Assembly: GCA_003696775.1 (NCBI GenBank)
Contig: RFFS01000139.1
Span: 1 to 37,050 of the forward strand
Direction: 5' to 3'
DNA: 37,050 nucleotides
Source: Calditrichota bacterium
GTDB taxonomy: Bacteria > Calditrichota > Calditrichia > Calditrichales > J004
Shown here piece after piece: positions 23,498 through 28,981 of this stretch. The notes under the pieces are model-generated. The model was given only the letters and a program-made list of their open reading frames with translations. It was not told the origin of the DNA and ran no database searches. A program made the translations under genes and the position numbers. Position 1 is the first letter of the stretch. Each line of letters begins with the position of its first letter.

Positions 23498-23696
23498 ACA
23501 GCTCCCAATTCATACTGATAAACGGCAAAGTTACAGGTGTGGGTTGTTCTATTCAATAAAACTTTTCCGCTCAAACGGGTTAAATCCATCAAGCCGGTTG
23601 TTTGCCTCCATCAGCTTCGATGTATCCGTTTATAACCTTTGCGCACAAAGGATAAATACCGTAAGTTGTAAAAAATACAATCGACCTGGTTCATCT

Positions 23697-24449
23697 ATGC
23701 AACAATTACTGGAAATCATGCGCCGCCTGCGCCGGGAATGCCCCTGGGACGCCAGGCAAACGCATCAAAGCCTTAAACGCTATCTGTTGGAAGAGTGCTA
23801 CGAAACCATCGAAGCGATTGATGCCAATGATATGAATGAGCTGAAAAAAGAACTGGGCGATATATTGCTGCAAGTTGTTTTTCATAGCGCCATTGCCGAA
23901 GAGAATGCGCATTTTACCTTTGAAGATGTGGTGGCAGCCATCAGCCGTAAGATGGTGGAACGCCACCCTCATGTGTTTGAAAAGGAGCGCGGCATTACCG
24001 CCCATCAGGTACAGGAAAACTGGGAAAAACACAAACACGCCTCGGAAGAGCGACGTTCATTGCTGGAAGGCGTGCCGCTTGCCCTGCCTGCCCTGTTACG
24101 CGCCCAACGGTTACAGGAAAAAGCGGCCGCCATTGGTTTTGACTGGTCGGATGCCCGATCGGTGTGGGAAAAACTGGACGAAGAATGGCAGGAAGTACAC
24201 CAGGCCCGGGAACAAGAAACAGAGCAGGCCGAGGCCGAAGAATTGGGCGATTTGATGTTTACCCTTGTCAACTACACCCGTAAGAAAGGCTGGAATGCCG
24301 AAGAGTTGCTGCAAAAAGCCAATCTAAAATTTTTAAAGCGTTTTAATCACATGGAAAAGGCTCTGGACTATAATACCGAACGATTACATAATACAGACCT
24401 GGATACACTGAATCGGTTATGGGAAACCGCAAAAAAGGACACGGAATAA
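23697..24449 (+). CDS. mazG: Nucleoside triphosphate pyrophosphohydrolase MazG
   Basis: This 250-residue protein has two MazG domains. The first has CPWDARQTHQSL, the EECYETIEAI helix and ELGDILLQVVFHS; the second has EEWQEV and AEELGDLMFTLVNY. These acidic ExxE/ELGD motifs bind Mg2+. MazG hydrolyses NTPs and dNTPs to monophosphates and pyrophosphate, cleansing the pool and, in E. coli, lowering (p)ppGpp through GTP/ATP pools. The frame is open upstream to 23406, but homology begins at the ATG at 23697 and the upstream part overlaps pfkA's promoter side. The ribosome site is weak. The stop overlaps the histidine kinase start by 1 nt (TAATG), linking it to a signalling operon. Confidence 0.93.
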   Translation: MQQLLEIMRRLRRECPWDARQTHQSLKRYLLEECYETIEAIDANDMNELKKELGDILLQVVFHSAIAEENAHFTFEDVVAAISRKMVERHPHVFEKERGITAHQVQENWEKHKHASEERRSLLEGVPLALPALLRAQRLQEKAAAIGFDWSDARSVWEKLDEEWQEVHQAREQETEQAEAEELGDLMFTLVNYTRKKGWNAEELLQKANLKFLKRFNHMEKALDYNTERLHNTDLDTLNRLWETAKKDTE

Positions 24450-25498
24450 TGACACTGCGCGCGTTTATCGAGTATTGCAGCGGCGCCGTCTCGGAAGAGA
24501 TTTTGGCCATGCAGGTTTTTGAATACCTCACAACACAGGGAAATATCAAAACCTTACATCTGTTGGAGCATAGCCACCAGCCCGAAGCGTTGCGCATGTT
24601 GCAATCGACGCATCCGGATTATAACAGCGTACAATTTATAAAGGAATATACCCCGCTCACGGCCCGGGAAGCAGGCTATGATGGGCCCGGCGGCTTTTGT
24701 TACCTTTCCACCGATGATACAAGCGCTTCCCTTTTTTATATCCTGGCTTTCTCTTCCGTGCCGGATGAATCGGTTCTGGAAATCCTTTCCGTATGGAAAA
24801 CCATCAGTAAAAGCATCCGACGCCACATGCAGGAAGGCGATCGGCGCACGCAATACCGTTATGCCGATCTGATTTCCCAGTTGCTTCATGATGTGCATGC
24901 CATAATGGAACTTTTTCCAGATAAAAAAAGCGAGGCGGCGTCTTTGCGTTTGCAATATCAGGCATCCGTCAATAAAAAAGTGTTACGTTATGTGCGTGAT
25001 CTCGAACTGTTCAACGCCACTGTGCCGCTGGAAGTGTTCATAAAAGACACGGCGCAAATGGCACTGGATGATCCATCCGTTATTCATTTCAGAATCGATC
25101 ACAAGCAATTCCCGTTGACCGGTGATATTGACCTGCTGGCCGAGGCACTCAAAGAGATACTGGATAATGCCGTAAACGCGGTTGCCGAAAAAACGCTTAA
25201 AATCGAAATAACAACGGATTATATCCCGTCAGATTCTCCGTTTCATCCGATGCATTGGCTTAAAATTACCATTCGGGATTATGGCAAAGGGATCATTCCC
25301 GATTTTTTACCCTATGTTAAAAAACCGTTTTTCACTACGGACAAATACCTGGGTCGCTCCGGTTTCGGTCTGGCCATTGTGGATAAGATCATCAATGCCC
25401 ATGGTGGTTTTGTGGACATCACCTCCATAAAAGGGCAATATACGGATGTGGTTTTGTATCTGCCCGTGGAATCTTCCGAAAGGTGTGATGAAAAATAA
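24449..25498 (+). CDS. Soluble sensor histidine kinase
   Basis: This 349-residue protein has no membrane span. The N-terminal ~130 residues form a putative input region with no family I recognise. The phospho-acceptor is H147 in ISQLLHDVHAI, and the ATPase domain carries the N box (EILDNAVNAV, N240/N243), G1 (DYGKG 277-281), an F-box-like PFFTTDK and G2 (GFGLAI 305-310). It should phosphorylate the adjacent NtrC-type regulator, whose gene overlaps it by 11 nt. Being cytosolic, it must sense an internal signal. An earlier in-frame start inside mazG (24419) was rejected because the TAATG junction at 24449 is the usual coupling form. Confidence 0.9.
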   Translation: MTLRAFIEYCSGAVSEEILAMQVFEYLTTQGNIKTLHLLEHSHQPEALRMLQSTHPDYNSVQFIKEYTPLTAREAGYDGPGGFCYLSTDDTSASLFYILAFSSVPDESVLEILSVWKTISKSIRRHMQEGDRRTQYRYADLISQLLHDVHAIMELFPDKKSEAASLRLQYQASVNKKVLRYVRDLELFNATVPLEVFIKDTAQMALDDPSVIHFRIDHKQFPLTGDIDLLAEALKEILDNAVNAVAEKTLKIEITTDYIPSDSPFHPMHWLKITIRDYGKGIIPDFLPYVKKPFFTTDKYLGRSGFGLAIVDKIINAHGGFVDITSIKGQYTDVVLYLPVESSERCDEK

Positions 25499-26831
25499 AA
25501 TACTAATAATAGAAGATAATGCCATCTGGCAACAGAAGTATAAAAAGTGGCTGGGCGCCGAATACAGCTACGCATTTGCCGCCAATACGGAAGACGCCTG
25601 TTTACGGATGGAGCAATTTATACCCGATCTGGTCATTCAGGACCTGGGGCTGCCCCACATCGATCAGGGTTTGCAACTGCTTAATCAGATCGTTTCCTCA
25701 ACCAATGACGTTAAAGTTATTGTGATCACCTCGTCACAGGATCACCAGCATGCGCTGGAAGCGCAACGTCGCGGCGCCTATTCGTATTTTTTTAAAGGTG
25801 AAAATATTGAAGAAGAATTGCCCCTGCTGGTACGCGGCGCCCTGCGTATGCAAAAACTGGAGCGTGAAAATAAAGAATTGCGCCATAAGCTGGATGCCAG
25901 CCTGCAATTTGAGAATATCATTGCGGTCAGCAAGCAAATGCAAAACATTTTGCGCCTGATAGAAAAAACACGTGCCACGCGGGAACCGGTATTAATCACT
26001 GGTGAATCCGGCGTGGGCAAGGAAGTGCTGGCCCGGCATATCCACCAACGGAGTATGCCCGCGCAAGCCCCCTTTATCACGCTGAATGCCGCCACGTTGC
26101 CGGAAAATTTGTTGGAAAACGAACTCTTCGGACATGAAAAAGGTGCTTTTACCGGTGCCACCGATCTTAAACACGGTCTTTTTGAACTGGCGGAGAACGG
26201 CACCCTGTTTCTTGATGAAATCGGTGAATTGCCCATACAAACCCAGGCTAAATTGTTACGCGTATTGCAGGAAAAAACCTTTTATCGTCTGGGCGGCCAA
26301 ACGGAAATCCGGGCCAACTTCCGACTGATTGCCGCCACCAATCGCGTACTTACGGAAGCTATTGAACAAAAACTGTTCCGTGAAGACCTCTATTATCGCC
26401 TGAATGTGATTCCCATACACATTCCGCCCCTGCGCGAACGGCCGGATGATATTCCCGCTCTGATCAACTTTTTTGTGGAACGCTATGCTGAAAATTATAA
26501 TCTGAAAAAAATACCGAAAATCGATCCTGCCGTTATCGCTTATTTGTCCCGTGTGGACTGGAAAGGCAACATTCGCGAACTGGAAAACACGTTAACACGC
26601 ATGCTGGTGATAAACAGTGAACATCTTACATTAAAGGACATCCCCTCGGATATTGAGGAACGAGAAAACAGTCTGCTGCGCCACGCGTTGGAACATGGAT
26701 ACACACTGGAAGAAATGACCCGGATGTATATCCATGCCGTTTATGAACATGTAAACCGCAATAAAAAAGAAGCCTGCAAATTTCTGAATATCAATTACCG
26801 CACCCTCACCGCCCGTCTCGATAAAAGCTGA
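25488..26831 (+). CDS. NtrC-family sigma-54-dependent response regulator
   Basis: This is a 447-residue protein with three parts. The receiver (~1-118) has E9, D10, phospho-acceptor D52 (VIQDLGLP), T81 and K103. The AAA+ domain (~140-375) has Walker A GESGVGKE (172-179), the sigma-54 contact loop GAFTGA (219-224) intact, and Walker B GTLFLDEIGE (238-247). A Fis-type helix-turn-helix lies at ~410-447 (NKKEACKFLNINYRTLTARL). All parts are intact, so it should activate sigma-54 promoters when phosphorylated by the adjacent kinase. The ATG at 25488 begins the canonical KNKILIIEDN strand. A matching promoter and repeated half-sites lie immediately downstream. Confidence 0.95.
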   Translation: MKNKILIIEDNAIWQQKYKKWLGAEYSYAFAANTEDACLRMEQFIPDLVIQDLGLPHIDQGLQLLNQIVSSTNDVKVIVITSSQDHQHALEAQRRGAYSYFFKGENIEEELPLLVRGALRMQKLERENKELRHKLDASLQFENIIAVSKQMQNILRLIEKTRATREPVLITGESGVGKEVLARHIHQRSMPAQAPFITLNAATLPENLLENELFGHEKGAFTGATDLKHGLFELAENGTLFLDEIGELPIQTQAKLLRVLQEKTFYRLGGQTEIRANFRLIAATNRVLTEAIEQKLFREDLYYRLNVIPIHIPPLRERPDDIPALINFFVERYAENYNLKKIPKIDPAVIAYLSRVDWKGNIRELENTLTRMLVINSEHLTLKDIPSDIEERENSLLRHALEHGYTLEEMTRMYIHAVYEHVNRNKKEACKFLNINYRTLTARLDKS

Positions 26832-26835
26832 TACC

Positions 26836-26913
26836 GGTTGCACAAATTGCAACCCTATCCCGTTGATATATTGCAAAAAATACAATTTTCTATGCAAATA
26901 GCAATGTAATTGT
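26836..26913. promoter_or_regulatory. Cluster of TTGCA half-sites, putative upstream activating sequences
   Basis: GGTTGCA (26836-26842) and TGCAACC (26848-26854) form a perfect 7-bp inverted repeat with a 5-nt spacer. TTGCAA (26871-26876) faces TGCAA (26893-26897). ACAATT (26882-26887) and AATTGT (26908-26913) form another inverted pair. The cluster lies about 65-140 nt upstream of the -24 element, the usual distance for NtrC-type enhancers, and starts just after the activator's stop codon. Confidence 0.6.
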
Positions 26914-26977
26914 CTGATTTTTAAGGGTTTACATCCGTTTTTGTTATAAATCCTTTAATATCAATGCCTTAAGGTTT

Positions 26978-26993
26978 TGGCACGTCGGTTGTT
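26978..26993 (+). promoter_or_regulatory. Sigma-54 (-24/-12) promoter
   Basis: TGGCACG-TCGG-TTGTT matches the sigma-54 consensus TGGCACG-N4-TTGCW at every defined position except C to T in the -12 element. It lies ~37 nt before the small-protein gene and just behind a gene for a sigma-54 activator. Confidence 0.85.
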
Positions 26994-27029
26994 AATAATA
27001 AAAGCAAATACAACAAAAGGGATTTTGAA

Positions 27030-27236
27030 TTGGAAAACATACTGTCGGGTGATTTACAGATCAGTACGACCAATGACCAGGAAGGTCGCACGTATTATCA
27101 AATTCGGGTTGCGTTTTCGGATAAAGACATTCTTACCATCAGTAAGAATAGCATTAACGAGCTCATGGATGAGTTACCCGATATTATTTCATCCGCCATT
27201 CAGGCGCGGGTCATAATGGAAAACAATATCAATTAG
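27030..27236 (+). CDS. Small protein of unknown family, first gene of the sigma-54 operon
   Basis: This is a 68-residue soluble, acidic protein with a predicted strand-rich first half (DLQISTTNDQEGRTYYQIRVAFSD) and a helical second half (INELMDELPDIISSAIQARV). I do not recognise a family. The start is a TTG at 27030 with an AAGGGA ribosome site 8 nt upstream; no ATG is available in frame near it. It follows the sigma-54 promoter by ~37 nt and precedes the receiver gene by 9 nt, so it should be strongly induced when the kinase/regulator pair is active. The size and fold pattern would suit a small regulatory or binding protein, but this is a guess. Confidence 0.7.
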   Translation: MENILSGDLQISTTNDQEGRTYYQIRVAFSDKDILTISKNSINELMDELPDIISSAIQARVIMENNIN

Positions 27237-27245
27237 GAGTCCCTC

Positions 27246-27629
27246 ATGCGTATTTTTATTTGTGAACACGACAACGGCAGAGCCCGTTCCATGCAAGCGA
27301 TTTTATCTGATTACAGTTATAAGGTTGTTACGATAGAAAAAAATACTGACTTATTTAAGCGCGTGAATCAACAAAAACCGGCGGTGATCATTATTAACGA
27401 AGGTTTTACCGATGCCGCGGGAATTGATACCTTAAACCGCCTCAAAAATGATCCGGCAACACGGGATATTCCCGTAATATTTATCGGACGGAATGAGAAG
27501 ATTCTTCATTACGCCCAGTCCTCGGATCATAATAAACTGGAAGTCGTGGGCGAACCGGTGAAAATTAAAAATTTACGGCACTATATTGACCGTTGGACGA
27601 CCTTAAAAAGTATCTATTTAAAGCATTAA
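27246..27629 (+). CDS. Degenerate (pseudo-) receiver domain protein
   Basis: This is a 127-residue stand-alone CheY-like domain beginning MRIFICEHDNGRAR with the usual alternating strands and helices (KPAVIIINEGF, TRDIPVIFIGRN). The phosphorylation residues are lost: the acceptor aspartate is N51, the conserved Thr/Ser position is G81, and the conserved Lys before Pro is E103 (VGEPVKI). It therefore cannot be phosphorylated in the normal way and is likely a protein-interaction or constitutively-on/off module. It has a strong AGGAG ribosome site and sits second in the sigma-54 operon. A target could be the upstream kinase or another regulator. Confidence 0.82.
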   Translation: MRIFICEHDNGRARSMQAILSDYSYKVVTIEKNTDLFKRVNQQKPAVIIINEGFTDAAGIDTLNRLKNDPATRDIPVIFIGRNEKILHYAQSSDHNKLEVVGEPVKIKNLRHYIDRWTTLKSIYLKH

Positions 27630-27633
27630 CGTT

Positions 27634-27723
27634 ATGGAAGTTTTTTTAATTATTCAGGTCATCATTGCAGCTATCTGGGTAATATATAAGGGAATAAATA
27701 TCAAGGACGATATTTTACCATGA
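27634..27723 (+). CDS. 29-residue single-span membrane peptide
   Basis: This short reading frame starts 4 nt after the pseudo-receiver stop. The product has a very hydrophobic core (VFLIIQVIIAAIWVIY, about residues 3-18) followed by a polar tail K-G-I-N-I-K-D-D-I-L-P. That matches a small inner-membrane peptide. It has no clear ribosome site, so reinitiation after the preceding gene is likely. Its stop codon overlaps the first base pairs of the terminator stem, so it ends the operon exactly. It resembles the general style of small regulatory membrane peptides, but no homology is claimed. Confidence 0.5.
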   Translation: MEVFLIIQVIIAAIWVIYKGINIKDDILP

Positions 27724-27754
27724 AGCGGATTTAACCATCCGCTTCTTTTTTTTT
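27722..27754 (+). terminator. Strong Rho-independent terminator of the sigma-54 operon
   Basis: A perfect 9-bp stem (GAAGCGGAT, 27722-27730; ATCCGCTTC, 27737-27745) with a 6-nt loop is followed by nine T residues. It overlaps the last codons of the convergent GAF gene, where the T-run encodes its Lys-Lys-Lys. There is no T-run on the minus-strand side. Confidence 0.93.
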
Positions 27755-28981
27755 CGGCGCCCATTGGGCGATACGTTCCAGGGCGTATTCAAAAATATGT
27801 GTCATTTCCCGCAGCATTCTGGAGTCTTTATTGCCGTATTGTCCCGCCTTTTTATGTTCCAAAATCACCGCTCCCCAAACCTCATCATTCAGATGGATAG
27901 GCGCGCCAAGAAACGCATGTAAATCGTAATTGGTTTTTTCATCCTTGCTGAAACGCGGGATGAACATATCACCGTTTTCAATGTCTTCCAACAGGTAAAC
28001 CCGGTCGTTGAGCAAAATTCGGCCGGCCAGACCCTCCTCCAGCGGGAATTTTTGTCCGTTACGGCCGGCTTCTTCCATGGCCACGCTTTTATAAATGTGA
28101 GCGGTGGGCGGAAATTTCTCATCACGGTCTTTAAGACAAATTGTTAATTTGTGGGCTTCAAATGTGGCCGCCAACTGTTCCACAAACGCGTCCAATGCTT
28201 CGTCTGGATCGGCCGCATTGAGCAGGGCGATGTATAATGCCTTTTCACGTTTTTCCTTAACCTGGCGGATTTCCGTTTCCAAACGAAAGAGAAAGTCATC
28301 AATCGCCTCGCGCAATAAACTTTCCAAACGGATGAGCACATCGAGGTCCTGGGCGTTGAAAAAGCCATTGCTTTTGGCGTCGAATATCCAATAAAGAGAT
28401 GTTTGGGGATGAATGGCTATGTGCTGAATATACAGGGAGCCGGGGCTGTAAGGTATATCCTCGTATAAGCGGTTGAGGTGGACATCATCCTTGAGTTGAT
28501 TTTCAATCAATATGTTTTGAGGGGCGTTGTGAATAAGTGTAAAAATGGCTTTAAAATCGGTGTGACGCGGGGTTATGGGTAAGTTTTCGGTTTCCGAAGC
28601 CAACAGGGTAATCTGTCCTTCTTCTTCCAATAAAAAATATCCGTGGTTGGGATGTAAAAATGCAAAGCCGATCTCGAATAAACGATTCAGATGGACGGCC
28701 AGCAGGCCGTCTTTTAAAGCCAGCAGTCGGGAAAAGCGGGCCGGTAATTTGAGCGCTTTTTTTTCAACAGGGCGCGAAGCAACGGGCGGCACCGGGGGGT
28801 CGGGTTCGCTAACCGCGGTAACAGAAGGTGCCGTGGCCGGCTTGTCTTGCTTATATAGGAGATAAATAAAACCGCCGAATAATATAATTTTGAGTACAAA
28901 AAGTGTTGTACTGTTTAAAAAAGACGGATTGATAAAAGCGGCGGTGCAAAACAAAACCACCATAATCAAAGTGTTGCGCAT
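27731..28981 (-). CDS. Membrane-anchored GAF-domain protein
   Basis: This is a 416-residue protein. Two hydrophobic segments (~3-22 and 26-43) are followed by a Pro-rich stretch (48-70). A divergent GAF-like domain covers ~85-230, a coiled-coil-type region (RLETEIRQVKEKREKALYIALL) ~235-260, and a C-terminal GAF domain ~262-405 (FPLEEGLAGRILLNDRVYLLEDI, HAFLGAPIHLNDEVWGAVILEH). There is no kinase, cyclase or HTH output domain, so it is probably a ligand-sensing membrane scaffold. The ribosome site is GGGGAT. It lies 61 nt behind the anti-sigma-like gene on the same strand and may be part of that regulon. The convergent terminator overlaps its 3' end. Confidence 0.8.
   Translation of the reverse strand: MRNTLIMVVLFCTAAFINPSFLNSTTLFVLKIILFGGFIYLLYKQDKPATAPSVTAVSEPDPPVPPVASRPVEKKALKLPARFSRLLALKDGLLAVHLNRLFEIGFAFLHPNHGYFLLEEEGQITLLASETENLPITPRHTDFKAIFTLIHNAPQNILIENQLKDDVHLNRLYEDIPYSPGSLYIQHIAIHPQTSLYWIFDAKSNGFFNAQDLDVLIRLESLLREAIDDFLFRLETEIRQVKEKREKALYIALLNAADPDEALDAFVEQLAATFEAHKLTICLKDRDEKFPPTAHIYKSVAMEEAGRNGQKFPLEEGLAGRILLNDRVYLLEDIENGDMFIPRFSKDEKTNYDLHAFLGAPIHLNDEVWGAVILEHKKAGQYGNKDSRMLREMTHIFEYALERIAQWAPKKKEADG

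Follow-up and report, generated by a model that had tools for sequence, protein, structure and literature searches.

The gene for an NtrC-type response regulator in a Calditrichota bacterium is followed by a cluster of inverted half-sites and a -24/-12 element, which raises the question of what binds there and which genes the region controls. The locus lies within a stretch of 37,050 nt (GCA_003696775.1, contig RFFS01000139.1, positions 1–37,050, forward strand; hereafter the window), and its gene order is mazG, histidine kinase, response regulator, the dyads and promoter, a gene for a 68-aa protein, a gene for a receiver-like protein, a 29-aa gene and a terminator. With a probability of about 0.9, we read the region as an enhancer plus sigma-54 promoter through which the response regulator, whose gene lies immediately upstream, controls the operon 27030–27723. 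Directly seen are the sequence elements, how they are conserved and arranged, a near-single-target regulon and the intact motifs of the activator. Genome-wide motif counts refer to the 3.25-Mb genome of the window and comparisons to a sample of 40 genomes of the phylum; since these are draft assemblies, whatever is missing (such as the regulator in G004, G022 and G033) may have fallen into an assembly gap. The window gave no matches in Rfam and tRNA searches.

Behind the regulator gene two dyads were distinguished, neither with an assigned strand. Dyad 1 (26838–26852; TTGCACAAATTGCAA), the predicted distal activator site, is centered at about -159 and lies within the fully symmetric stretch GGTTGCA-N5-TGCAACC (26836–26854; GGTTGCACAAATTGCAACC), which had been pointed out in the initial annotation and is indeed present there, as a single copy in the genome; its core, TTGCA-N5-TGCAA, has one copy in the window, where 0.04 would be expected. 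Dyad 2 (26871–26885; TTGCAAAAAATACAA), the predicted proximal site, is centered at about -126, i.e., 33 bp or approximately three helix turns from dyad 1. The further half-site pairs listed in the initial annotation fared differently: TTGCA at 26871 and ACAATT at 26882 are real, but they are the two arms of the complete dyad 2, while TGCAA at 26892 and AATTGT at 26909 are absent from the matching place in three genomes of the same genus. The cluster as such is therefore borne out, as two defined dyads and not as a scatter of half-sites. The dyad consensus is ATTGYA-N5-TRCAAT, with an A/T-rich center.

The -24/-12 element claimed for this region (TGGCACG-N4-TTGTT) was found at positions 26978–26993 of the forward strand (TGGCACGTCGGTTGTT; GG-N10-GT, TGGCAC-N5-TTGTT), with a predicted transcription start near 27004, and it is the only site in the window with at most one mismatch to TGGCACN5TTGCW. 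Its -12 dinucleotide is GT, in place of the canonical GC. The pattern TGGCAC-N5-TTGYW occurs at 11 places in the genome vs. 4 for the reversed pattern, and the element thus belongs to a modestly enriched class. RpoN is encoded in the same genome (PF04552, E-value 4.3e-60, contig C95). In the relatives the -24 GG is kept, and the -12 dinucleotide is GT in 18, GC in 9 and GA in 7 of 34 promoters. The -12 regions of these 34 Calditrichota promoters mostly read TTGTA or TTGTT, with TTGAT in some families, the canonical form being TTGC. We counted against the main reading that the -12 element carries GT and not GC, with GA in some relatives; such departures are nevertheless tolerated in the phylum, TTGTN being the commonest form among the 34 promoters.

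The possibility that the dyads are not conserved in relatives, which would speak against an enhancer, was checked, and strong conservation was found. An exact double-dyad pattern (gap of 8–38 bp between the dyads) is present in 30 of the 40 genomes, mostly once in each, and in none of the 40 for the reversed control. With at most one mismatch per dyad, both dyads together with a -24/-12 element precede the 68-aa or the receiver-like gene in 34/40 genomes. In these 34 genomes the dyads are spaced by 31–34 bp (32 bp in 14, 33 bp in 12, 31 bp in 7 and 34 bp in one), and the -24 element lies 105–107 bp from dyad 2 in 19, 115–120 bp in 14 (groups of 115–116 and 118–120 bp) and 94 bp in a single genome. 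The left-arm letters T, T, G and A are kept in 67–68 of the 68 dyads, and all half-site letters except the Y/R pair in at least 63. The double dyads adjoin regulator orthologs of 53–82% identity; at ten Calditrichota loci the dyads and the promoter are directly visible downstream of the regulator stop codon, which in several genomes runs directly into the first dyad (TAATTGCA...), and in two genomes of family f4 the double dyads are found at the start of the regulator's operon. Genomes G025 and G026 have one intact dyad with the promoter, and in G033 a dyad, the promoter and the receiver-like gene lie at a contig end. The sequence of the spacer between dyads and promoter is not conserved across the relatives; inspection by eye for a bending site revealed an AT-rich spacer with TTGTTTTTAT-like stretches and no fixed block. 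Since the layout recurs across the deep-branching class Calditrichia, it is very probably the regulator's own switch for one small neighboring operon, and the persistence of the dyads in position, spacing and sequence beside the regulator orthologs supports the NtrC-type enhancer proposed in the initial annotation.

The presumed activator (25488–26831, forward strand) has an open frame from 25446 and a likely ATG start at 25488. It is composed of a receiver domain (PF00072, 5.8e-16), whose acidic pocket, acceptor Asp and Lys are kept in 35 orthologs, an AAA+ domain (PF00158, 5.2e-68) with Walker A intact and GAFTGA or GAYTGA present in all 35, and a Fis-type HTH (PF02954; 24.1 bits vs. a cut-off of 22), whose NKKxAC...NYRTL residues are shared by at least 90% of the orthologs. 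This near-invariant HTH core matches the invariance of the half-sites. With a receiver, an AAA+ domain, a Fis-type HTH and candidate dyads, the protein can be assigned on its sequence to the NtrC-type (group I) bacterial enhancer-binding proteins. Its nearest relatives in the contig search all come from Calditrichota, the full-length ones sharing 60–82% identity. NtrC proper (TIGR01818) was rejected, the score of 362.8 bits being below the cut-off of 558.6 and the site motif being different (PMC8743547). The partner histidine kinase (24419–25498, forward strand) has a phospho-acceptor, His157, that is invariant in 18 aligned members. No Pfam sensor domain was found in it; its model (pLDDT 86.7) has a globular alpha/beta N-terminal domain, which may be called GAF-like from the order of its secondary-structure elements.

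Three other explanations were weighed. The inverted repeats might be RNA hairpins, i.e., terminators or attenuators behind the regulator gene, given that dyad 1 lies 6 bases past the stop codon and can fold into a 7-pair stem; yet a T-run is absent after the dyad, the terminator scan is blank there, and folding of the whole region is no better than that of shuffled sequences (z -0.74). RNA stems would be expected to select against C-A combinations at the variable pair (dyad positions 4 and 12). Pairing is also not kept among the relatives, because this pair forms a C-A mismatch in 23 of the 68 dyads, close to the approximately 25 expected from the column counts for independent arms. As the two positions vary independently, a DNA-binding dimer is favored over an RNA hairpin, and the C-A frequency is consistent with a protein dimer that contacts each half-site independently. 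A terminator would, moreover, give no meaning to the fixed 31–34-bp spacing and the near-fixed distance to the promoter. We therefore rejected the hairpin reading, on the terminator scan, the comparison with shuffles and the mismatch counts, as very improbable.

A protein other than the neighboring regulator, either another Fis-type activator or an unrelated repressor, could bind the dyads. Co-localization is not binding, other bacterial enhancer-binding proteins of these genomes could in principle bind the sites (a point counted against the main reading), and in Desulfovibrio only one of two neighboring activators bound the promoter that they share (PMC4641369). In 37 genomes, however, the sites are essentially confined to the locus and own operon of the regulator, the off-locus matches read were mostly intragenic and lacked a sigma-54 element, and no second regulator gene sharing the conserved neighborhood was seen; we consider a foreign binder unlikely and, from co-localization and co-conservation, infer that the adjacent regulator occupies the dyads. 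The regulator might, on the other hand, be a true PrsR, with the system controlling PEP-CTERM/exosortase surface proteins. TIGR02915 (PrsR) is its best NCBIfam match (381 bits), and the PrsR box likewise precedes sigma-54 promoters (PMC1569441). Against this, the score lies below the curated cut-off of 502.6, the exosortase model TIGR02602 (EpsH) matches 0 of 40 genomes, the targets found are not PEP-CTERM genes, and the globular N-terminus of the kinase model differs from the transmembrane layout of PrsK. Membership in the PrsR/PEP-CTERM system was rejected on the sub-threshold score and the lack of an exosortase in the 40 genomes, and we regard it as extremely improbable.

The proposal that the motif could serve a genome-wide regulon search held insofar as the motif is usable, but the regulon delivered by the pattern searches is almost a single promoter and not a wide one. 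Scanning the 40 genomes for a dyad 76–106 bp before TGGCAY returned mostly the locus itself, the remaining matches being mostly weak dyads. When 20 off- or near-locus places were read individually, most strong off-locus dyads proved to lie within open frames and to lack a -24/-12 element, and single dyads in the genome of the window (13) were about as frequent as in the reversed control (12), on which grounds a wider regulon was rejected. The regulon found consists of the adjacent downstream operon, the operon of the regulator itself, which is preceded by a single dyad, and a target that is duplicated in one genome. This duplicate, on contig C321 of G013 (L165, L199), repeats the 68-aa gene together with a dyad of its own and a promoter of the same type; the gene after it probably encodes a secreted protein. 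It is the only second target found. In G014 (C17:4083; L203 1784–1798) a perfect dyad, TTGTATTTTTTACAA, lies approximately 125 bp before a phosphofructokinase-like gene and 1.3 kb beyond the receiver-like gene, and is possibly a lineage-specific extra target.

A third dyad, missed in the initial annotation, was identified at 23666–23680 (TTGTAAAAAATACAA; likewise with no strand assigned), 17 bp before the start of mazG (23697–24449, forward strand), the first gene of the mazG-kinase-regulator operon. It overlaps the -10 of a weak sigma-70-like promoter (TTGCGC at 23639–23644, N17, TAAGTT at 23662–23667), which suggests negative autoregulation, and the same arrangement can also be read in the genus of the window. 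The single mazG-proximal dyad recurs in families f1, f4, f5 and f6, and in most of f5 it is doubled, with approximately 70 bp between the copies. This dyad is probably an autoregulatory site, with the promoter and the repression predicted from the sequence pattern; we counted against the main reading that the sigma-70-like elements at mazG are weak and that the dyad is missing in families f2 and f3. In f2, a gene for an FAA-hydrolase-like protein often precedes mazG.

The target operon starts with the gene for the 68-aa protein (27030–27236, forward strand; TTG start), a member of an undescribed family present in 28/40 genomes, practically always behind the predicted sigma-54 promoter of the dyad locus. 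The protein was modeled as beta-beta-beta-alpha (pLDDT 84), and sequence searches of Pfam, NCBIfam and the PDB gave no noteworthy match; a likeness to Pur-alpha is a weak fold match (E-value 0.04, TM 0.4) and was not relied on. The second gene (27246–27629, forward strand) encodes a stand-alone receiver-like protein (pseudo-receiver), found at nearly every locus, in which the acceptor Asp is replaced by Asn and the active-site Lys is lost. Among the relatives, Asn is the usual residue at the acceptor position (a few f2 genomes have Asp there), the catalytic Lys is missing, and a C-terminal EPxKIKNxRH...RW block is strongly kept across the class. The third, unannotated gene (27634–27723, forward strand) encodes a 29-aa hydrophobic microprotein (MEVFLIIQVIIAAIWVIYKGINIKDDILP) that is kept at 21 of the examined loci (families f1–f3) and ends in KGxxIKDDxL; its substitutions are concentrated at third codon positions, and it is therefore very probably a real gene. 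The operon ends with an intrinsic terminator (27722–27745, forward strand) detected by the terminator scan. A GAF-domain gene with a hydrophobic N-terminus (27731–28981, reverse strand) is convergent with the operon and is its neighbor in many relatives as well.

In the proposed switch, two regulator dimers would bind the two TTGYA-N5-TRCAA dyads, which, being approximately three helical turns apart, would lie on the same side of the DNA. The partner histidine kinase would phosphorylate the regulator, which would then build its AAA+ ring at the dyads; the DNA would loop, and ATP hydrolysis would open the RpoN-polymerase complex at TGGCAC-N5-TTGTT. Via the single dyad that overlaps the start region of mazG, the regulator probably represses or tunes its own operon. 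The binding, the phosphorylation by the partner kinase, the activation and the direction of autoregulation are what we infer from these sequences.

At glnAp2, the spacing between the two strong NtrC sites is likewise approximately 32 bp, and sigma-70 promoters of the operon that encodes NtrC are themselves bound and repressed by it. In enteric bacteria, the tandem palindromic sites for NtrC dimers at glnAp2 are located approximately 90–140 bp upstream of the start of the sigma-54 promoter, and the locus described here resembles this system in its tandem candidate dimer sites upstream of a sigma-54 promoter and in the looping that it would employ (PMC7408454). It differs in its motif (ATTGYA-N5-TRCAAT vs. 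the NtrC consensus TGCACCA-N3-TGGTGCA; PMC8743547) and in its regulon, which is essentially a single operon and does not comprise nitrogen genes. PrsR/PrsK, the nearest named regulator family, shares the order of activator box and -24/-12 element (PMC1569441), whereas the PEP-CTERM box motif, the kinase and the targets are different and an exosortase is lacking in the phylum sample. Small local sigma-54 regulons are normal: in Desulfovibrio most comprise one to four operons, and there, too, the activator gene adjoins its conserved sigma-54 promoter, although the phylum and targets are other ones and the TTGCA/TTGTA motif is not printed in the text of that study (PMC4641369). A literature search for Caldithrix with sigma-54 found nothing.

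The mechanism thus appears to be that of an ordinary NtrC/sigma-54 enhancer whose recognition motif is new; its comparative footprint looks unusually clean, and its target operon is unexplained. Tentatively, the locus may be a new type of self-contained, class-wide two-component signaling module that acts almost exclusively on one operon, which would encode three undescribed regulators or adaptors (the beta-beta-beta-alpha mini-protein, the pseudo-receiver and a membrane microprotein); these could act back on the kinase or regulator, or relay the response to the envelope. For Calditrichota, the analysis provides a triple of activator, site and promoter that is confident and open to experimental testing, with a defined motif and spacing rule, and it highlights three conserved, undescribed families of small proteins, which visibly share only their control by the predicted dyad/sigma-54 switch.
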